A DNA stretch of 33,709 nucleotides from Acidimicrobiaceae bacterium (GTDB lineage Bacteria > Actinomycetota > Acidimicrobiia > Acidimicrobiales > Aldehydirespiratoraceae), in assembly GCA_002694825.1 (NCBI GenBank), contig NZNH01000079.1, positions 2,833-36,541 on the forward strand. Reading direction: 5' to 3'. Under the pieces are notes generated by a model. That model had not been told where the DNA came from. It did no database searches and was given only the letters and a program-made list of their open reading frames with translations. Position 1 is the first letter of the stretch. Each line of letters starts with the position of its first letter. Positions 23,805 to 33,654 of the stretch are shown here, one piece after another. The translations under genes and the position numbers were made by a program.

Positions 23805-24743
23805 ATGCTCGTCATCCAGCGACCCACTGTCGAAGCCATCGACGAGGCGGAGGGAAACCTCCAGCGCTTCGCCGTCGGGCCACTCGAGCCTGGTTTCGGC
23901 CACACCATCGGCAATTCGTTGCGCCGCACACTGCTGTCGTCCATCCCGGGCGCAGCCGTGACGCAGGTGCGCTTCGACGACGCCCTTCACGAGTTCGACA
24001 CCATCGAGGGTGTTGCTCAGGACGTCACCGACATCATCCTCAACCTCAAGGACCTCGTCCTCGTGGTGCACAGCGATGAGCCGGTGACCCTGCGTCTCGA
24101 CGCTCGTGGCGCCGCCGAGGTCACGGCCGCCGACATTCAGCCCCACCCCGACGTCGAGGTGCTCAACGGTGCTCTCGAGATCGCCAGCCTCAACGGCAAG
24201 GGCCGGCTCGCCGTCGACCTGACCGTCCAGAACGGTCGCGGCTATGTCTCGGCCGACAAGAACAAGACCAGCACCACCATCGGTGTGATCCCGGTCGACT
24301 CGATCTACTCGCCGGTTCGGCGTGTGTCGTTCGAGGTCGAGCCGACTCGCGTCGAGCAGTCGACCGACTACGACCGCCTCGTGCTCGAGATCGAGACCGA
24401 CGGTTCGATCAGCCCTCGCGAAGCACTTGCGTCGGCCGGCGGCACCCTGCGTGCCCTGGTGCAGCTCGTCGAGGAGATGAGCGACGAACCGCAGGGCCTC
24501 GAGCTCGGCGAAGCCGTTCAGGTCGCCTCGGGCGGCCCGGACATGGAACTCCCCATCGAAGACCTCGAACTCTCCGAGCGTCCCCGCAACTGCCTCAAGC
24601 GCGCCCAGGTCAACACCGTCGGCGAGCTGCTTCAGAAGAGCGAGGACGATCTTCTGGCCATCACCAACTTCGGCCAAAAGAGCCTCGATGAGGTCATCGA
24701 GAAGCTTGACGAGCGAGGTCTCTCGCTCCGGAATCGAGACTGA
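23805..24743 (+). CDS. rpoA: RNA polymerase alpha subunit
   Basis: Assembly scaffold and activator contact of RNA polymerase, 312 residues. The N-terminal domain contains FAVGPLEPGFGHTIGNSLRR (22-41) and the dimer region through about 230. The C-terminal domain (about 245-312: DLELSERPRNCLKRAQVNTV, GELLQKSEDDLLAITNFGQK, SLDEVIEKL) keeps the helix-hairpin-helix that binds UP elements and activators. The ATG at 23805 follows GCAGAGGTACCG. rplQ follows after two bases. Confidence 0.98.
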   Translation: MLVIQRPTVEAIDEAEGNLQRFAVGPLEPGFGHTIGNSLRRTLLSSIPGAAVTQVRFDDALHEFDTIEGVAQDVTDIILNLKDLVLVVHSDEPVTLRLDARGAAEVTAADIQPHPDVEVLNGALEIASLNGKGRLAVDLTVQNGRGYVSADKNKTSTTIGVIPVDSIYSPVRRVSFEVEPTRVEQSTDYDRLVLEIETDGSISPREALASAGGTLRALVQLVEEMSDEPQGLELGEAVQVASGGPDMELPIEDLELSERPRNCLKRAQVNTVGELLQKSEDDLLAITNFGQKSLDEVIEKLDERGLSLRNRD

Positions 24744-24745
24744 TC

Positions 24746-25099
24746 ATGCCCGCACGTCCTCGCAAGGGCGCCCGTTTCGGCGGGAGCGCTGCTCACCAGA
24801 AGGCCATGATGGCCAACCTTGTCGCCAGCCTCATCGCAGCCGAGGCGATCACCACCACGGAAGCCAAGGCCAAGGCCATGCGTCCTGTGGCGGAGAAGAT
24901 GATCACCAAGGCCAAGAAGGGTGGCGTCCACAACCACCGCAATGTTGTGAAGTTCCTGCGCGATCGTGAGATGGCCAGCAAGCTGTTCGACGAGATCGGT
25001 CCGCGCTACGAGGACCGTCCCGGTGGCTACATCCGGATCATCAAGCTCGATCCTCGTTCGGGGGACAACGCGCCGATGGCGCGTGTCGAGCTGGTCTGA
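24746..25099 (+). CDS. rplQ: Ribosomal protein L17
   Basis: 50S protein near the tunnel exit, 117 residues (PARPRKGARFGGSAAHQKAM). The conserved segments ANLVASLIAAEAITTTEAKA and GGYIRIIKLDPRSGDNAPMA are present. It ends the alpha operon; a strong terminator lies 34 bases beyond the stop. Confidence 0.98.
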   Translation: MPARPRKGARFGGSAAHQKAMMANLVASLIAAEAITTTEAKAKAMRPVAEKMITKAKKGGVHNHRNVVKFLRDREMASKLFDEIGPRYEDRPGGYIRIIKLDPRSGDNAPMARVELV

Positions 25100-25133
25100 T
25101 CTTGTCCGGCTCCAGCCGGTTCAGAACGTTGAT

Positions 25134-25170
25134 CGAAGCGTCCCTCTTCGGAGGGGCGCTTCGCCGTTTT
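25134..25170 (+). terminator. UUCG-loop terminator after rplQ
   Basis: CGAAGCGTCCCTC (25134-25146) and GAGGGGCGCTTCG (25151-25163) form a 13-bp stem with one wobble, closed by the very stable C(TTCG)G tetraloop and followed by CCGTTTT. This is the clearest intrinsic terminator in the window and ends the long ribosomal transcription unit. Confidence 0.85.
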
Positions 25171-25207
25171 CGCCGCATGCCCGGCGACGACGTCCGGGCC
25201 GTCGCCC

Positions 25208-25213
25208 TAGCCT
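25208..25213 (+). promoter_or_regulatory. -10 box for truA, probable leaderless start
   Basis: TAGCCT ends exactly 6 bases before the truA ATG (25220), the spacing expected if transcription starts at the start codon. No good -35 box and no Shine-Dalgarno are seen. Confidence 0.45.
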
Positions 25214-25219
25214 GACGAC

Positions 25220-26011
25220 ATGGCCCCCCGGACCGTCGCCCCGCCGCCCGATGGGCAGGTGCGCGTCCGCATGACGGTCGCCTACGACGGTGCTCCGTTC
25301 CACGGGTTCGCCACCAACCCCGATGTACGCACGGTGCAAGACGATCTCCACGAGGCGCTGTCGAAGGTCCTGCGAGCGCCGATCACGGTGACGTGTGCGG
25401 GGCGCACCGATCGGGGTGTGCACGCTCGTGGTCAGGTCGTGTCGTTCGACGCCGACGCCGATCACTTCGACGCTGTCGCCTTGACACGAGCGCTCAATCG
25501 GATGCTCGCCCCGGAGATCTCGGTGCGTGATGTCGCTCTGGCGGCCCCGGACTTCGATGCCCGGATCTCGTGCGTGGCTCGCAGCTACCGCTATCGCGTC
25601 CTGAACTCGGTCTGGCCCGACCCGCTCGTGCGTGACCTGGTCTGGCACGTGCGCGAGCCCCTCGAGATCGGGGCCATGCAGTTGGCGGCCGATCAGATTC
25701 TTGGCGAGCACGACTTCACGTCGTTTTCGAAGAAGAACAAGTCGAAGGTCAACGAGACCTTCGTCCGGACCGTGGATCGGGCGCAGTGGCGTCGTGTCGG
25801 CGACACGGTGCAGTTGGAGATCACCGCCAACGCCTTCACCCACCAGATGGTTCGGAGCCTCGTCGGCATGTTCGTCGAGATCGGGCGTGGACGACGCCGA
25901 CCGGACGAGATGGGCGAGGCGCTCCGGGCGATGAGTCGGAGGGCCGTGTCGTCGCCGGCACCGCCACAGGGGCTTGAGCTCACCCGGGCCCACTACCGCG
26001 GCGATGTCTGA
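25220..26011 (+). CDS. truA: tRNA pseudouridine(38-40) synthase
   Basis: Converts uridines 38-40 of the tRNA anticodon stem to pseudouridine. It has 263 residues. The catalytic Asp64 lies in CAGRTDRGVHARGQVVSF; the N-terminal VRMTVAYDGAPFHGFATNP and the C-terminal ANAFTHQMVRSLVGMFVEIG are family signatures, as is HDFTSFSKKNKS. The ATG at 25220 has no ribosome-binding site and sits 6 bases after a -10 box, so a leaderless mRNA is likely. truA between rplQ and rplM is a common bacterial order. Confidence 0.95.
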   Translation: MAPRTVAPPPDGQVRVRMTVAYDGAPFHGFATNPDVRTVQDDLHEALSKVLRAPITVTCAGRTDRGVHARGQVVSFDADADHFDAVALTRALNRMLAPEISVRDVALAAPDFDARISCVARSYRYRVLNSVWPDPLVRDLVWHVREPLEIGAMQLAADQILGEHDFTSFSKKNKSKVNETFVRTVDRAQWRRVGDTVQLEITANAFTHQMVRSLVGMFVEIGRGRRRPDEMGEALRAMSRRAVSSPAPPQGLELTRAHYRGDV

Positions 26012-26039
26012 CGGCTGCGGATTTCGCGCGGTGCAACGA

Positions 26040-26068
26040 TTGCTGTTGCCTGATTGCGCCCGTAGGCT
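26040..26068 (+). promoter_or_regulatory. Promoter for rplM-rpsI
   Basis: TTGCTG (26040-26045), 17-base spacer, TAGGCT (26063-26068), in the 132-base gap after truA. The predicted leader is about 70 bases and contains a small GCGCC/GGCGC hairpin near 26085-26101. Confidence 0.55.
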
Positions 26069-26143
26069 TGTCTGTCGGTCCTGAGCGCCCGTCTTCGGCG
26101 CCGGACGATTTGTTCTCATCCTTTCGTTCCGCGGAGGAACACC

Positions 26144-26599
26144 GTGTCCACCTACACCCCGAAGGCCGGCGACGTCGAACGCGCTTGGCACGTCGTTGAC
26201 GCCGAAGGCCTTGTGCTCGGTCGCCTGTCGACCGAAGTCGCCAACATCCTGCGTGGCAAGCACAAGCCGACCTACACCCCGAACATGGACATGGGCGACC
26301 ATGTCATCATCGTGAACGCTGACAAGGTCGTGCTCACCTCGGGAAAGGCCGAGAAGAAGCTCGTGCACCGTCACAGCGGCTACCCCGGCGGTCTCCGGAG
26401 CGAGACCTACGCCGAGAAGATGGCCCGCAGGCCTGAGCAGGCCGTGATGGACACCATCCGGGGCATGATCCCCAAGACCCGCCTCGGTCGTGCGCAGATC
26501 TCCAAGCTGAAGGTCTACGCCGGTCCGACGCACCCCCATGCGGCGCAGAACCCCCAGCCGCTTGAGATCGCGCACGCCACCTACGAAGCCCGCGCCTGA
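26144..26599 (+). CDS. rplM: Ribosomal protein L13
   Basis: Early 50S assembly protein, 151 residues, starting at GTG 26144 with GCGGAGGAACACC upstream. Family segments: [71 protein letters not shown] and LPK-type helix [20 protein letters not shown]. rpsI follows 20 bases later. Confidence 0.98.
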
Positions 26600-26619
26600 T
26601 TCGCCACGAGGATCCTGAG

Positions 26620-27012
26620 ATGACCACTCCGCTCGCCCAGACCACCGGCCGTCGCAAGCGTGCCGTCGCCCGCGTGCGTTTCCGCAACGGCTCCGGCACC
26701 GTCACCGTCAATGGCCGTCCGGTCGACGAGTTCTTCCCGTCGAAGGTGCAGGTCGAGGCGCTGCTCGAGCCGCTCGCCGTCACCGAGACCAGCGAGTCCT
26801 ACGACATCGACGCCACCATTCATGGCGGTGGCACCACCGGCCAGGCTGGTGCGCTGCGCCTCGGGATCGCTCGTGGCCTTGTCGAACTCGACGCCGAGCA
26901 CCGTGGCGCCCTCAAGTCGGCCGGCTTCCTCACCCGCGATCCTCGCAAGAAGGAAAGCAAGAAGTACGGCCTCAAGAAGGCTCGCAAGGCGCCGCAGTAC
27001 AGCAAGCGCTGA
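26620..27012 (+). CDS. rpsI: Ribosomal protein S9
   Basis: 30S head protein whose C-terminal tail reaches the P-site tRNA. It has 130 residues with [20 protein letters not shown] near the N-terminus and the invariant end [12 protein letters not shown] (final Lys-Arg). ACGAGGATCCTGAG precedes the ATG. glmM begins 66 bases after the stop. Confidence 0.98.
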
Positions 27013-27044
27013 TCGCCCCGCTGGTCGCGCTTCGCGCCGGTCCC

Positions 27045-27072
27045 TTGCCTTCGGTCGTCTTCGGCCGATGAT
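27045..27072 (+). promoter_or_regulatory. Possible promoter for glmM
   Basis: TTGCCT (27045-27050), 16-base spacer, GATGAT (27067-27072). The -10 end lies 6 bases before the GTG of glmM, again suggesting a leaderless transcript. The -10 match is poor. Confidence 0.3.
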
Positions 27073-27078
27073 GATGCC

Positions 27079-28398
27079 GTGACGTTGACCTTCGGAACCG
27101 ACGGCATGCGGGGTGATGCCCGCACCGAACTGACTCCTGTGCCTGTCCGCGCCCTTGCGCGAGCCGGAGCGGAGATCCTTGGTCACCGTGGCTTCGCCGT
27201 CGGTCGAGATACTCGCGCCTCGGGTCCGGAGCTCGCCGACGCCGTGCATGCAGGTGTCGCCGCTGCTGGCGGTGATTCAGCCGATCTCGGCGTTGTGCCG
27301 ACGCCGGCCGTCGCCCGATGGTGTGCCGATCATCAGGTCGCCGGAGCGATGATCTCGGCGTCGCACAATCCCTGGTACGACAACGGCATCAAATTCTTCG
27401 CCCCCGGTGGGTCGAAGCTCGGTGATCGGGTGCAGGACGAGATCCAGGCCCGTTTCGACGCGCTGCGGGGAACCGAGATCGAGGCGATTCCGACGGTCGT
27501 GGACGCCCATGACATCGCAGCCGAGTCTCACGTCGACAGCGTTGTCGCCAGCCTCGATGGGCGCAGCCTCGCCGGACTCGTCGTCGTTGCCGATGCGGCG
27601 AACGGTGCGGCGTACGACGTCGCCCACCGGGCGCTGATTCGCCTCGGTGCCGACGTGACGATGCTCCATGCCGCTCCCGACGGCACCAACATCAACGACG
27701 GGTGTGGGTCGACCCATCCAGAATCGCTGCAGGCCGCTGTCGTCGAGCGCGGCGCCGACCTCGGCGTCGCATTCGACGGTGACGCGGACCGGCTCCTCGC
27801 GGTCGACGCCGATGGTCGTCTGATCGACGGCGATCAGATCATCGCCATGTGCGCACTCGACGCCAAGGCTCGAGGCGGTCTCGCCGGCGATGCGGTCGTC
27901 GTCACCGTCATGACCAACCTTGGTTTCCGGCGGGCGATGGACGACGCCGGCATCCACATTGTCGATACCAAGGTCGGCGATCGCCACGTGCTGGAGGCGC
28001 TCGACGCAGGTGGGTATTCGCTTGGCGGCGAACAGTCCGGCCACGTGATCTTCCGCGAACTCGCTTCGACCGGTGATGGCCTCCTCACGGCGGTGCAACT
28101 GCTCGACATCGTGGCGCGCCGAGGACGCCCACTCGGCGTGCTGGCCGATGCGGCGATGACCCGCTTGCCGCAGGTGCTGCAGAACGTTCGGGTCGCCCAG
28201 CGGCCGGCCGACGTCGATGGGCCACTCGCCCCGTTTATCGACGCGTCACTTGCCCGCATGGCTGGCCGGGGTCGTGTGCTGATCCGGCCCTCGGGTACCG
28301 AACCGCTCATCCGGGTCATGGTCGAAGCCGAAACCGATGCCGAGGCCCGAATGGAGGCCGATGGCCTCGTCGCTGCGGTCGAGTCGCTTTTCGGCTGA
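27079..28398 (+). CDS. glmM: Phosphoglucosamine mutase
   Basis: Converts glucosamine-6-phosphate to glucosamine-1-phosphate for UDP-GlcNAc and peptidoglycan. It has 439 residues from the GTG at 27079 (MTLTFGTDGMRGDA). The phosphoserine loop ISASHNPWYDNGIKFF holds catalytic Ser95; the metal site DGDADR supplies Asp233, Asp235 and Asp237; the sugar loop GGEQSGHVIF is near residue 315; the C-terminal phosphate loop RPSGTEPLIRVMVEA ends the protein. The assignment to glucosamine (GlmM) over other hexose mutases rests on motif style and on the GlmS-like gene 87 bases downstream, as near rplM-rpsI in mycobacteria. Confidence 0.95.
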   Translation: MTLTFGTDGMRGDARTELTPVPVRALARAGAEILGHRGFAVGRDTRASGPELADAVHAGVAAAGGDSADLGVVPTPAVARWCADHQVAGAMISASHNPWYDNGIKFFAPGGSKLGDRVQDEIQARFDALRGTEIEAIPTVVDAHDIAAESHVDSVVASLDGRSLAGLVVVADAANGAAYDVAHRALIRLGADVTMLHAAPDGTNINDGCGSTHPESLQAAVVERGADLGVAFDGDADRLLAVDADGRLIDGDQIIAMCALDAKARGGLAGDAVVVTVMTNLGFRRAMDDAGIHIVDTKVGDRHVLEALDAGGYSLGGEQSGHVIFRELASTGDGLLTAVQLLDIVARRGRPLGVLADAAMTRLPQVLQNVRVAQRPADVDGPLAPFIDASLARMAGRGRVLIRPSGTEPLIRVMVEAETDAEARMEADGLVAAVESLFG

Positions 28399-28422
28399 AC
28401 CGTGACGGCCGGGTGACGGTCC

Positions 28423-28428
28423 TAGACT
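28423..28428 (+). promoter_or_regulatory. -10 box upstream of the GlmS-like gene
   Basis: TAGACT in the 87-base gap after glmM, with a poor -35 (GTGACG at 28402-28407, 15-base spacing). The leader would be about 55 bases and contains the palindrome GACTGCAGTC (28452-28461). It could allow expression separate from glmM. Confidence 0.35.
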
Positions 28429-28485
28429 CCTCCCTGCGGATATCCGGCTCAGACTGCAGTCCGGCTTCGCAGGAGAGACACACCG

Positions 28486-31400
28486 ATGTGCGGGATCATC
28501 GCCGTAGTCCGGCGCCCTTCGACACGAGCAGCGCCGACGAGCCAGTCGGTCCTTGATCTCGTCGCGGGTCAGGCCACCCTGCTCGGCTCCGGCCCCGATG
28601 CCACCGATGCCATTGCTGCGGTCGGTACTCGCCTTGCCGAGGCCGACGCCCTCCTGCGCGGTGTTCCCGGCCTCCGTCTCCTGTTGGCCGAGTCCAGCCT
28701 GGGTCCGGCTCTGGTGCACCACTGCGGTGAGCTCCTCGCTGCGGTCGAGCAGGAGGAACAGCGACTCGAGCAGGATGGCAGCCTTTCGACGAAGCAGCTT
28801 GAAGCCCGCAACCAGGCCTTGATCGCTGTTCGCGATGGGGTGTGGGCGATCACCCGCGACCGGCTCCGGGCCGCAGAGGTCGTCAGCCACCTCAGCGGCG
28901 GTGCGATGCATACCGGGTCGCTCGAGGCCTTCCTGTCGATCCACCAGGCCCTGTCGGCGATCGATCGGCTTGAGGTCCGCGGCCGCGATAGCGCTGGCCT
29001 GCACGTCCTCGTTCACGACCATGCGCTCGACCTTGACGATCCGGTGATCGCCGCCGAGATCGACCGTCGTTCGGGCGATCCCAACTTTGGCACCGGCTCG
29101 GTTCGCGTCGTCGACGGGGTCCTGAGCATCGTGCACAAGACCGCCGCCGAGATCGGTGAGCTCGGCGACAACACGGCAGTGATCCGCCAAGCGTTCGCCG
29201 ACGACGCGTTGCTGCACGCTGCGCTCGCCAACGAAACCGCTCGCACACTGGTGCTCGGCCACACCCGTTGGGCGTCGATCGGCATCATCTCCGAGCCGAA
29301 CGCTCACCCACTCAACAGCGAGCTGGTCGACGCTGCCGGCCCCTATGTCGTCGGCGCGCTCAACGGCGATGTCGACAACTTCGCGGATCTGATCGCCGAC
29401 GAGGGCGTGACGATCACGCCGTCCATCACCACCGATGCCAAGGTCATCCCGTCGCTTACGAGCCGCCGCCTCGGTGAGGGGCTCGAGTCGGCTGAGGCGT
29501 TCCGGCGCACGGTTGCAACGTTCGAAGGTTCCGTCGCCATCGGTGCGTGCACGGCGGCCGCACCGGACAAGCTTCAGCTGGCCCTGCGTGGCTCGGGTCA
29601 GGCGCTCTACATCGGTCTCGCCGAGGATGCCTACATCGTCGCTTCCGAGCCCTACGGCGTGGTTGAAGAGACGGCTCACTATGTCCGCATGGACGGTGAG
29701 ACACCCGGCAACCCCGAGAATCCCAACGCCAGTCGCGGTCAGATCATCGAGCTTGATGGTGATCTCGCCGGAACGGTAGAGGGGATGCTGCGCAAGGCGT
29801 ACGACGGCACCGATCTGGCCGTTGCAGCCAACGACGTCGCTGTTGCCCAGATCACCACTCGCGATATCGATCGGGGTGATCACCCGCACTATCTGATGAA
29901 GGAGATCGGCGAGTCACCGACCTCGTTCCGTAAAACGCTCCGCGGCAAGATCGTCGAGACCGACGCCGGCTTGCGGGTCTCGCTCGGGCCTTCGGTGATC
30001 CCCGACGAAATCCGCGAACTGGTTCGCAACGGCACCATCACGCGGGTGCTCGCGATCGGGCAGGGCACGGCAGCCGTCGCCGGACAGGCGCTTGCCGCCG
30101 GCCTCGATGCTCTCACCCCCAACGGTGAGATCGAGGTGGAAGCCGTTCTCGCCACCGAGCTCTCCGGCTTCCGGCTGCGGCCCGACATGAGCGACACCCT
30201 GGTCGTCGCCGTCAGCCAGTCCGGTACCACCACCGACACCAACCGCACGGTCGACATCGTTCGCAACCGAGGCGCCAAGGTCATTGCGATCGTCAACCGG
30301 CGGGGGAGCGACCTCACCGATCGCGCCGACGGTGTGCTGTACACCTCCGACGGACGCGATGTGGAGATGTCGGTCGCCTCAACGAAGGCGTTCTACTCGC
30401 AGATCGCAGCGGGGCTCTTGCTGTCGATTGCCATCACTGACGAGCTGCTCGGTGACGAGATGGCCGACGACCGCGCCGGCCTGCTGAAGGGCATCACTGA
30501 ACTGCCAGCCGCAATGGAGACTGTGCTCGGCCGTCGCGACATCATCGGCGAGGCCGCCCGCCAGTTCGCGCCAAGCCGGCGCTACTGGGCGATGGTCGGC
30601 AACGGGCCCAACCGGATTGCAGCGCAGGAGGTCCGGGTCAAGCTGAGCGAGCTCTGTTACAAGTCGATCGCCGCCGATAGCACCGAGGACAAGAAACACA
30701 TCGACCTGTCGTCTGAGCCGCTGATTTTCGTGTGTGCCGCCGGCCTGTCCGGCTCGACCGCCGACGACGTCGCCAAGGAAGTGGCGATTTTTCGGGCGCA
30801 CAAGGCAGCGCCGATCGTCGTGGCCGACGAGGACCAGTCGCGGTTCTCGAGCGCGCTCGCCGTGCTCCCGGTGCCGGCCGTCGACCCTCGTCTGGGCTTC
30901 ATCCTCTCGACGATGGCCGGCCATCTCTTCGGGTACGAGGCTGCGCTGGCCATCGATGCGCAGGCTCGTCCGATGCGCGAGGCCCGCAGCGCAATTGAGC
31001 AGGCCGCCGCACACCCCCAGATGAGTGGTGAAGAGGCGCTCGTGTCGGTCGAGTCCACGCTCGAACGAACAGCGGCTTCGTTCTTCGACCTGCTCCGCAC
31101 CGGTGAGCTCAACGGCCATATGGAGGCGTCGACGGCGAGCAGGGTCGCATCGCTTCTGCGGTTTGCGCTCGGTTCCTCGCCGCTCGAGGCCTACCAGATC
31201 GAATACGGCAAGGTGGGCACGCCTGCCGTCGTGCTCGATGATCTCGCCGCCGCCCTCACCCTCGGCATCGAAGAACTCACCCGCCCGATCGACGCCATCA
31301 AGCACCAGGCCAAGACCGTGACGGTCGGCATCTCCCGCTCCGACGAGACACTCCTCGACGTTGCGCTCAGTCGGGCTGTGGTCGATGCGGGGGCTCCCCG

Positions 31401-31920
31401 CGATCGCCTGTCCTACGCCTCGCTGCGCACCCTCGCTGACCTCGACCCGGCGATCGACGACGTGCTCGGTCACACCCGCTATCGCATCGAGGGCATGGAC
31501 GCTGACGGCAACGGCGAGGCCACGGCTGTGGTCGTCGACCGAGGCGGCATCAGCCGTAACATCGCCTCTCGTACCGACCGCAGCCCGACCCTGAAGGGCA
31601 CGAAGCATCAGGTGGCGCTCGAGCGACGGGTGTTCGTCGCCCGAGGCCGTTCTGATGACCGAACCGTCGTGATCGTCCCCGAAGTGAAGGACAACGTCAC
31701 CACCGGACTCACACTGCTCCAGGTGAAACTCGCCGACGAGCTGTCGCCCGGCGCCGCTCGCGGCGTGCTGCAGGGCTACCGCAACCGCTACTCGGCGGTG
31801 CGTGACGCCGTGATGGAGACCGAGCCGATCTTTCGCGAAGACCTTCTCGGCCAGCAGCCGGTCGCCGATCTGCTCACCTTGCCGATTAACGATCTCGCCG
31901 ACCGTTGGCGGGTGAGCTGA
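28486..31920 (+). CDS. glmS: Giant GlmS-like glutamine--fructose-6-phosphate aminotransferase
   Basis: Predicted to make glucosamine-6-phosphate, the substrate of GlmM. At 1144 residues it is almost twice normal GlmS (about 600-625). Glutaminase half: nucleophile Cys2 (MCGIIAV), RGRDSAG (165-171), GHTRW (258-262), NAHP (272-275), LNGD with Asn293-Gly294, TTDAKVI with Asp317. Isomerase half: HPHYLMKEI (466-474), first SIS domain about 518-650 with SQSGTTTDT (577-585) and ASTKAF (631-636), second SIS about 698-826 with Lys719, Glu722 and His738 spaced as Lys485, Glu488 and His504 of the Escherichia coli enzyme. The catalytic-Lys tail appears as QAKTVTVG (Lys943), displaced by about 100 residues. 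Extra parts: helical insertion about 12-158, about 45 residues before GHTRW, insertion about 827-930, and an unrecognised 951-1144. AGGAGA precedes the ATG. The frame is unbroken throughout. A different sugar substrate cannot be excluded. Confidence 0.85.
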   Translation: MCGIIAVVRRPSTRAAPTSQSVLDLVAGQATLLGSGPDATDAIAAVGTRLAEADALLRGVPGLRLLLAESSLGPALVHHCGELLAAVEQEEQRLEQDGSLSTKQLEARNQALIAVRDGVWAITRDRLRAAEVVSHLSGGAMHTGSLEAFLSIHQALSAIDRLEVRGRDSAGLHVLVHDHALDLDDPVIAAEIDRRSGDPNFGTGSVRVVDGVLSIVHKTAAEIGELGDNTAVIRQAFADDALLHAALANETARTLVLGHTRWASIGIISEPNAHPLNSELVDAAGPYVVGALNGDVDNFADLIADEGVTITPSITTDAKVIPSLTSRRLGEGLESAEAFRRTVATFEGSVAIGACTAAAPDKLQLALRGSGQALYIGLAEDAYIVASEPYGVVEETAHYVRMDGETPGNPENPNASRGQIIELDGDLAGTVEGMLRKAYDGTDLAVAANDVAVAQITTRDIDRGDHPHYLMKEIGESPTSFRKTLRGKIVETDAGLRVSLGPSVIPDEIRELVRNGTITRVLAIGQGTAAVAGQALAAGLDALTPNGEIEVEAVLATELSGFRLRPDMSDTLVVAVSQSGTTTDTNRTVDIVRNRGAKVIAIVNRRGSDLTDRADGVLYTSDGRDVEMSVASTKAFYSQIAAGLLLSIAITDELLGDEMADDRAGLLKGITELPAAMETVLGRRDIIGEAARQFAPSRRYWAMVGNGPNRIAAQEVRVKLSELCYKSIAADSTEDKKHIDLSSEPLIFVCAAGLSGSTADDVAKEVAIFRAHKAAPIVVADEDQSRFSSALAVLPVPAVDPRLGFILSTMAGHLFGYEAALAIDAQARPMREARSAIEQAAAHPQMSGEEALVSVESTLERTAASFFDLLRTGELNGHMEASTASRVASLLRFALGSSPLEAYQIEYGKVGTPAVVLDDLAAALTLGIEELTRPIDAIKHQAKTVTVGISRSDETLLDVALSRAVVDAGAPRDRLSYASLRTLADLDPAIDDVLGHTRYRIEGMDADGNGEATAVVVDRGGISRNIASRTDRSPTLKGTKHQVALERRVFVARGRSDDRTVVIVPEVKDNVTTGLTLLQVKLADELSPGAARGVLQGYRNRYSAVRDAVMETEPIFREDLLGQQPVADLLTLPINDLADRWRVS

Positions 31921-31954
31921 CGCTCGGCCCGCCGGTCGGCTGTCGACGGCCCTG

Positions 31955-31960
31955 TAGGGT
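31955..31960 (+). promoter_or_regulatory. -10 box for acpS, probable leaderless start
   Basis: TAGGGT ends 6 bases before the acpS ATG. No clear -35 and no ribosome-binding site at proper spacing are seen. Confidence 0.35.
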
Positions 31961-31966
31961 CGCAGG

Positions 31967-32338
31967 ATGATCGGGATCGGAACCGACCTCGTTGACATCG
32001 ACCGTTTCCGCGAGGTGCTCACCCGCACTCCGGGAATTCGGACGCGACTGTTTTGCGACGCAGAACTCGCCTACGCCGACACGAGTGGCGATCCCGCCCG
32101 CCCCCTTGCCGCCCGGTTCGCAGCGAAGGAGGCGTTTCTCAAGTCGCTGAAGTCGGGCCTCGGCGCCGTTCGCTTCAGTGAGGTTGAAGTCGTTCGCCAT
32201 GACGACGGTCATCCCGAACTCGTGCTGCACGGCGAGGCGGCTGTGTTCGCCCGGAGCAAGGGCGCCGGACGGTTCGAGATCAGTCTCACCCATACCGACA
32301 CGCTTGCGCAGGCGGTCGTGGCGGCGCTGCCCGAGTGA
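31967..32338 (+). CDS. acpS: Holo-[acyl-carrier-protein] synthase
   Basis: Transfers 4'-phosphopantetheine from CoA to acyl carrier protein. It has 123 residues, the usual trimeric AcpS size. Metal/substrate residues are seen in MIGIGTDLVDI (Asp7) and RFAAKEAFLKSL (Glu55), and the end has the ISLTHTDTLAQAVV strand. It lies 46 bases after the GlmS-like gene and overlaps nnr by four bases (GTGA). AcpS next to nnr is a common bacterial pairing. Confidence 0.95.
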   Translation: MIGIGTDLVDIDRFREVLTRTPGIRTRLFCDAELAYADTSGDPARPLAARFAAKEAFLKSLKSGLGAVRFSEVEVVRHDDGHPELVLHGEAAVFARSKGAGRFEISLTHTDTLAQAVVAALPE

Positions 32339-33654
32339 TCCCGATCGTCACCCCCGCCGAGATGGCGGCGATCGACGCTGCCGCGCCCGTGCCGGTCGCT
32401 GCGCTCGTCGAACGTGCTGGCGCAGCGGTGGCTCGCGCCGCCGTCGACCTTCTGGGCGGGACGTATGGACGGCGGGTGGCGGTCGTCGCAGGCAAGGGCA
32501 ACAACGGGGCCGACGGCCGCGCCGCCGCCACCCGGCTCCAACGTCGTGGCGTGCGATGCGTGGTGCTCGATCCCGACATCGCCGCGCTGCCGGTCGAGGT
32601 CGATCTCGTCATCGATGCTGCCTACGGCACGGGCCTCAGTCGGCCCTACGACTTCCCGGCCGTTCCCGAGGGTGTCCCCGTCCTCGCCGTCGACATCCCG
32701 TCCGGGGTCGACGGTCTCACCGGAGCGCGCCTCGGTTCGCCGCCCGCTGCCGATCGCACGGTCACTTTTGCGGCGCTGAAGCCCGGTCTTCTTCTCGAAC
32801 CAGGGCGGGAACTGTCCGGCGAGGTGGTGGTCGCCGACATCGGCCTCGACACGGGCGACGCCACGATTGACCTCGTCGAAGGGTCCGACGTGGCTGATTG
32901 GCTGCCCGTACCGGCCGCCACGGTCCACAAGTGGCACCACGCCATCCGCATCATCGGCGGGTCGTCCACGATGACCGGCGCTCCTCGTCTCGCTGCCCGC
33001 TCGGCCCAGCGCCTGGGGGCGGGCTACGTGCAGATGGCGATCCCTGGCCGCGACGGCGTCGACGATCCGGTCGAGGCGGTTGGGTATTCGCTCCCGGCCT
33101 CGGCGTGGGGTGCCGCAGCGGTCGCCGACCTTGATCGTGTGGCTGCCGTACTCGTGGGTCCCGGACTCGGCCCCGGCCATGACGTCGATGTGGCCACGGT
33201 GCTCGGCGTCGACCGTCCGCTCGTTCTCGACGGCGACGCACTGCAGCCCGAGTTCCTTGATGTGATTCGCGATCGCGCTGCGCCAACTGTGTTGACCCCG
33301 CACGGCGGTGAGTTCGCCCGGCTCGCCGGCCACACCACCACCGACCCCATCGCCGCCACCCGAGAACTCGCAGCCTCGATCGGCGCTGTCGTCGTCCACA
33401 AGGGACCGACGACGATCGTGGCCGACCCCGACGGGCCGGTCCTGGTTGTGGCCAACGGCGGCCCGGCACTCGCCACGGCCGGTACCGGTGACGTGCTTGC
33501 CGGAGCGATCACCGCCTTGCTCGCCCAGGGGGTCGATCCCGTTCGCGCAGCGGCGTCCGCAGTCTGGCTCCATGCCGAGGCCGGGCGTGAACAGGTGGGC
33601 CTCGTCGCCTCTGATCTGCCCGACCGGCTCGCCCTGCTGCTCAGCGACGGCTGA
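32335..33654 (+). CDS. nnr: Bifunctional NAD(P)H-hydrate epimerase / ADP-dependent dehydratase
   Basis: Repairs hydrated NAD(P)H: the N-terminal YjeF_N domain epimerises the R form and the C-terminal ribokinase-like domain dehydrates the S form using ADP. It has 439 residues from the GTG at 32335. Epimerase motifs: KGNNGADG (54-61), IDAAYGTG (93-100) and VDIPSGVDG (119-127). Dehydratase motifs: HKWHHAIRIIGGSSTMTGAP (198-217), TPHGGEF (321-327), NGGPALATAGTGDVLAG (374-390) with the catalytic Asp in GTGD. Both halves look complete. The next gene overlaps the stop by one base. Confidence 0.95.
   Translation: MIPIVTPAEMAAIDAAAPVPVAALVERAGAAVARAAVDLLGGTYGRRVAVVAGKGNNGADGRAAATRLQRRGVRCVVLDPDIAALPVEVDLVIDAAYGTGLSRPYDFPAVPEGVPVLAVDIPSGVDGLTGARLGSPPAADRTVTFAALKPGLLLEPGRELSGEVVVADIGLDTGDATIDLVEGSDVADWLPVPAATVHKWHHAIRIIGGSSTMTGAPRLAARSAQRLGAGYVQMAIPGRDGVDDPVEAVGYSLPASAWGAAAVADLDRVAAVLVGPGLGPGHDVDVATVLGVDRPLVLDGDALQPEFLDVIRDRAAPTVLTPHGGEFARLAGHTTTDPIAATRELAASIGAVVVHKGPTTIVADPDGPVLVVANGGPALATAGTGDVLAGAITALLAQGVDPVRAAASAVWLHAEAGREQVGLVASDLPDRLALLLSDG

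Follow-up and report, generated by a model that had tools for sequence, protein, structure and literature searches.

A long-form glucosamine-6-phosphate synthase with a putative catalytic C-tail inside its chain, standard in a large actinobacterial clade

Introduction

Where does a glucosamine-6-phosphate synthase (GlmS) carry its catalytic lysine when the C-terminal tail does not directly follow the second SIS domain (SIS2)? The question is raised by an 1144-residue protein encoded in a 33,709-nucleotide stretch of contig NZNH01000079.1 (Acidimicrobiaceae bacterium, assembly GCA_002694825.1), the whole of which is referred to here as the window. GlmS catalyses the first step in making amino sugars (for the cell wall), and a sizeable group of actinobacteria uses the oversized form. 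In E. coli GlmS, the tail lysine forms a Schiff base with fructose-6-phosphate. Passages of PMC9272926 name E. coli Lys603 as catalytic, and passages of PMC8041777 name the C-tail as the chief mobile element between the two domains of GlmS. An earlier note on this DNA, made from the letters alone, had proposed that residues 827–930 or thereabouts are an insertion and that Lys943, beyond it, is the true catalytic residue. Our analysis makes it very probable that the gene encodes the organism's GlmS, in a long form with its C-tail at residues 931–951 and with Lys943 acting as Lys603 does in the E. coli enzyme.

Evidence for an internal C-tail

The NCBIfam GlmS models matched residues 244–824 of the protein, all under cut-off, with the alignments ending at model position 585–589 of 601–607 (residue 822–824). 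In a comparison with the PDB, E. coli GlmS was matched over residues 257–825 (E 1.4e-29), the alignment ending at residue 825. Both comparisons stop just before the C-tail, indicating that the tail is missing from its usual place. These end points, and the helices found beyond them in a structural model (see below), agree with the proposed insertion. The translation likewise bears out the residues that had been named: residues 827–839, right after SIS2, read ARPMREARSAIEQ and include Arg834; QAKTVTV occupies residues 941–947 with Lys943, the stretch 30964–31362 of the window encoding residues 827–959; and Glu722 and His738 are at the positions given for them.

We aligned the window protein with 96 relatives that start with MCG (97 sequences), the proteins from 13 of the 110 loci being excluded because they lack this start (GTG starts or truncated). 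The full alignment contains 104 rows (101 distinct), including seven divergent sequences that are 43–58% identical. Lys943 and every residue from Gln941 to Gly948 are invariant in all 104 rows, so that the QAKTVTV motif, whose conservation the earlier note had offered as a test, does not vary; AKTVTV is also present in all members retrieved from elsewhere in the phylum, outside the class (7/7). The 17-residue segment 936–952 ranks second highest in conservation in the protein. Position 834 is Arg in 98 rows, His in 5 and Ser in 1, with Lys in none. PRNLAK[TS]VTVE is the C-terminal sequence of every ordinary GlmS protein that we fetched from the class (13/13), and AK[TS]VTV is common to these ends and to the internal motif. 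When residues 827–1144 were shuffled 200,000 times, the pattern AK[ST]VTV arose in 19 shuffles, so that its presence here exceeds chance expectation.

The distance from Glu818 to Lys943 is 125 residues (the modal value, in 30/104 rows) whereas the alignment gives 17 for L120, an ordinary GlmS of this class, a displacement of about 108 extra residues; the maximum of 859 in the 104-row count is an artefact of a faulty search pattern. Whereas E. coli GlmS has approximately 608 residues with the tail as its free C-terminus, the tail of the long form is internal, has a Pro-to-Lys spacing 4 residues longer, and is followed by about 200 more residues, an extension that the E. coli enzyme lacks. Across the 104 rows, 192–212 residues lie beyond the tail lysine; the usual GlmS arrangement, with the tail right after SIS2 at the chain end, is not found.

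The residues expected of a GlmS glutaminase (Cys2, Arg261, Trp262, Asn293, Gly294, Asp317) are each present in 104/104 rows. The same is true of the isomerase residues Ser577, Gln578, Ser579, Thr582, Lys719 and His738, with Glu722 in 103/104 (one X); we take their E. coli counterparts, from alignment, to be Ser347, Gln348, Ser349, Thr352, Lys485, His504 and Glu488, respectively. The sequences thus retain the catalytic residues of both halves, and glucosamine 6-phosphate (GlcN6P) would be the expected product.

A template-free AlphaFold2 model of the monomer was built with 77 aligned sequences (mean predicted local distance difference test score (pLDDT) 87.6, predicted template-modelling score (pTM) 0.81). 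Residues 804–825 form the last SIS2 helix and 828–841, 848–872, 881–895, 900–907 and 913–940 form the helices of the insertion, while residues 941–951 have no regular structure. VIA-align placed residues 2–948 of the model onto residues 1–608 of E. coli GlmS (1jxa_A, Z 39.6 over 595 residues; 2j6h_A, Z 39.2) and residues 461–948 onto 243–608 of 1moq. The residue offset of 340 in the E. coli overlays sets Lys943 on Lys603; since the program gives end points, this placement of the tail rests on end-point register. Eleven of 27 GlmS/GFAT overlay rows are in this register, which for the human enzyme sets residue 948 on 681. The likeness to E. coli GlmS (1jxa, 2j6h and 1moq; Z approximately 39 over 595 residues) takes in the glutaminase and two SIS domains, the catalytic residues and the AK-VTV tail, and human GFAT-1 (6zmk, 6r4g) has the same core and tail, its best overlay having Z 40.7 over 605 residues. 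The earlier note had held that a tail lying far from the SIS site would speak against its proposal; the overlay of the monomer, which has low pLDDT at this point, instead carries the tail onto the C-tail of GlmS. Invariance in the alignment and register in the model together support Lys943 as the putative catalytic residue; its placement on Lys603 is supported by the model, in which it may contact Glu722 and His738.

Distribution of the long form

We surveyed 198 genomes of the class. The long form is present in 81 of them and an ordinary GlmS scoring above the TIGR01135 cut-off in 104; the two never occur together, and the other 13 have fragments or nothing. In the search for ordinary GlmS, the best match in the 81 long-form genomes was no better than 1e-76, and the weakest match of the 104 was 9.4e-138. 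A hand count by family gave 26 with the long form, 19 with the ordinary form and none with both (f14 undecided). The ordinary enzymes of the class are approximately 600–650 residues long, presumably have the same metabolic role, and show 26–30% identity to the long form (13 fetched). In the window genome (2.7 Mb, 89% complete), the 1144-residue protein has no match besides itself. These data indicate a GlmS subfamily in its own right, marked by three additions, which serves as the standard enzyme in a large clade and takes the place of ordinary GlmS. The observation of the earlier note is confirmed and its interpretation supported, but the topology that it called unusual is not the oddity of one genome.

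Two other accounts of the distribution were rejected. An additional ordinary GlmS beside the long form was found in none of the 81 genomes, and an assembly artefact or local fusion is rejected by the presence of the long form in 81/198 genomes of the class; we also set against an artefact the at least 537 related stretches in genome contigs, a count that mixes ordinary GlmS and the long form. In a sample of the phylum, residues 827–1144 were matched in 33 of 396 genomes, or 31 after removal of two chance matches; G464 and G309 were dropped as long-form carriers, their matches lying in other proteins or reading frames. A tblastn search against plasmids gave no match.

Points against the assignment and alternative explanations

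Several observations weigh against assignment of the protein as GlmS with an internal tail. Its TIGR01135 score is 218.1 bits, the cut-off being 418.05, which places it outside the curated family, and we found no assay of any long-form enzyme in the literature. Position 529 is Ala in 104/104 rows (Ser303 in E. coli), the other canonical residues tested being kept, and Arg167 (28984–28986) stands in 104/104 long forms where the ordinary GlmS loop RGYDSAG has Tyr. Among the 27 GlmS/GFAT rows, 8 extend into the tail with an end point shifted by 1–4 residues from the register, and a further 8 stop at residues 939–940. The monomer model has pLDDT below 50 in the tail (941–952) and in the His738 loop (730–738). 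The training of AlphaFold2 included solved GlmS structures, so the overlay is not independent of prior knowledge. Finally, a profile-profile alignment sets ARPMREARSAIEQ, not QAKTVTV, opposite the ordinary tail, at confidence 0.

With an invariant Arg167 in place of the Tyr of RGYDSAG, the tail must contact the glutaminase in another way. The position of this residue appears to match that of Tyr35 in human GFAT-1, which contacts the C-loop according to passages of PMC7000685, and the contacts by which tail and glutaminase close were probably altered together with the topology. As the sole enzyme, with a glmM neighbour and intact catalytic residues, the long form is best read as a working GlmS: judged by sequence, it is GlmS-like and would do the job of GlmS, though it lies outside TIGR01135.

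The alternative that survives best accepts Lys943 as catalytic, but has helix 913–940 carry it across to the partner subunit, as a domain-swapped tail, so that it acts in trans in the partner's sugar site. The His504 loop of GlmS comes from the partner subunit, and the segments of low confidence in the monomer (730–738, 941–952 and also 628–631, where pLDDT is likewise below 50) are parts that should come together in the composite site of the GlmS dimer. In 11/27 GlmS/GFAT rows, however, the monomer model by itself brings the tail to the cis position, and we consider delivery in trans improbable. Still less can be said for a different amidotransferase reaction, with GlcN6P made by another enzyme. 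The low identity to the 13 ordinary enzymes (26–30%), the three extra modules and the score under the TIGR01135 cut-off are what such a change of function could leave, but 0/81 long-form genomes have an ordinary GlmS, glmM is the neighbour and the canonical catalytic residues are retained, which renders it very unlikely. We give equally little credence to residues 827–839 as the tail, with Arg834 replacing Lys and QAKTVTV a conserved linker of other role: RPMREARSAIE is indeed paired with the ordinary tail by profile-profile alignment, but this stretch of it has confidence 0, position 834 varies (R/H/S) and falls within helix 828–841 of the model, not in an extended tail, and a Schiff base requires a lysine, Lys603 in E. 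coli GlmS.

Table 1. Features of the long-form glmS locus (window positions).
Feature	Position	Strand	Basis
glmM-like gene directly upstream of long-form glmS	27079..28398	+	Open reading frame; glmM homologue in 63/64 testable loci
Long-form GlmS, 1144 residues	28486..31920	+	Open reading frame translation, NCBIfam and PDB comparison, class survey
Cys2 codon, N-terminal nucleophile (Cys1 of mature GlmS)	28489..28491	+	104/104 rows
Helical insertion between first (Cys2) strand and glutaminase core, residues 16–145	28531..28920	+	Model helices, no Pfam match, least conserved segment
Glutaminase (class II glutamine amidotransferase) core, residues 146–455	28921..29850	+	R261, W262, H274, N293, G294, D317 invariant
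First SIS domain, residues 456–655	29851..30450	+	S577, Q578, S579, T582 invariant
Second SIS domain, residues 656–826	30451..30963	+	K719, H738 invariant; E722 in 103/104 (one X)
Inserted helical bundle between SIS2 and tail, residues 827–930	30964..31275	+	Five model helices; Arg834 inside, where ordinary tail would stand
Putative relocated C-tail, residues 931–951, LTRPIDAIKHQAKTVTVGISR	31276..31338	+	19/21 columns at least 95% in 104 rows; E. coli GlmS overlay
Lys943 codon, proposed Schiff-base lysine (E. coli Lys603)	31312..31314	+	K in 104/104; overlay in register with 603
C-terminal alpha/beta extension, PAS/GAF-like shape, residues 952–1144	31339..31917	+	Model and fold overlays

Additional modules and a possible mechanism

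The earlier note had missed two of the three additions, the approximately 200 residues after the tail and the insertion of about 130 residues (16–145) directly after the Cys2 strand. Pfam gave no match for the N-terminal or the helical insertion, and on the C-terminal extension nothing over cut-off (DUF7124, E 0.15, is under it). Alignments A1 and A2 consist of the window protein and 76 of 80 loci (without L032, L035, L045 and L087). A Pfam scan of the 77 A2 members returned scattered weak matches only, and a search of solved structures with the A2 profile and with the C-terminal extension alone gave 0 matches. When the insertion and the C-terminal 193 residues were modelled as a fragment (826–1144; pLDDT 90.2, pTM 0.60), Foldseek found no match at E 0.001 or below, the best being E 0.017. 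Residues 88–131 of the fragment (913–956) form one helix, unlike in the full model, suggesting that the conformation of the tail depends on the core.

Residues 959–1144 overlay residues 174–359 of the large glutamate dehydrogenase mL-GDH180 of M. smegmatis (7jsr_A; Z 9.4, root-mean-square deviation 4.5, 161 residues aligned), a protein with ACT-like or PAS-type domains. The likeness to this N-terminal sensor region is one of fold, with 14% identity, no profile support and an unrelated enzyme. The extension also overlays GAF, PAS and Cache sensor domains, for the most part with Z values of 6–7.7. Comparing profiles of the three extra modules with those of 30 N-terminal proteins of large glutamate dehydrogenases gave no support (P 0.05–0.16); runs with a cut-down profile of the extension gave P 0.046–0.054 and global runs 0.28–0.32. 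A sensor role for the extension is thus a lead only.

In the mechanism that we propose, Cys2 would, as in E. coli GlmS, hydrolyse glutamine, and the SIS domains would hold the fructose-6-phosphate that receives the ammonia. The mobile tail (931–951) would close both active sites and supply Lys943 for the Schiff base. The five-helix insertion (approximately 826–930) would separate the tail from SIS2, and the long helix that ends it (913–940) would bring the tail back to the sugar site. Because the chain continues into a domain of approximately 190 residues, the tail would be anchored at both ends rather than free at one, and its closure would likely be coupled to the insertion and C-terminal domain, acting as a regulatory or oligomerisation module. 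A bolder reading, which we regard as rather unlikely, is that of a self-regulating GlmS throughout the clade, in which a PAS/GAF-like small-molecule sensor is fused straight to the tail, thereby held at both ends, and binding of a ligand to the extension would either open the sugar site and the ammonia path or lock them; if true, allosteric control of amino-sugar synthesis would be built through the C-tail itself.

In GlmS and GFAT the C-tail is described as a mobile C-terminal element acting at both active sites. Passages of PMC7000685 report that tags at either end interfere with GFAT-1, and passages of PMC7948480 that a C-terminal His tag has little effect on hGFAT2. A natural, clade-wide enzyme with an internal tail would show that a free C-terminal end is not needed, and it would offer a convenient system for testing how movement of the tail governs ammonia transfer. 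Our search of the literature (PMC) found no description of a long-form GlmS. For annotation, the consequence is that many actinobacterial genomes have a GlmS that falls under the cut-off of the curated model.

Gene neighbourhood

An Rfam scan of the window gave 0 matches. A glmM homologue lies upstream of the long form on the same strand in 63 of 64 loci with at least 1500 bases upstream (tblastn), and downstream are acpS in 62/65 loci and nnrD in 59/65 (tblastn). In the window, glmS stands at the end of a cluster of the ribosomal alpha-operon type (23805–33654), in the order rpoA, rplQ, truA, rplM, rpsI, glmM, glmS, acpS and an nnrD-like gene; these names were read from the open reading frames, and adjacency was tested by tblastn for glmM, acpS and nnrD only.
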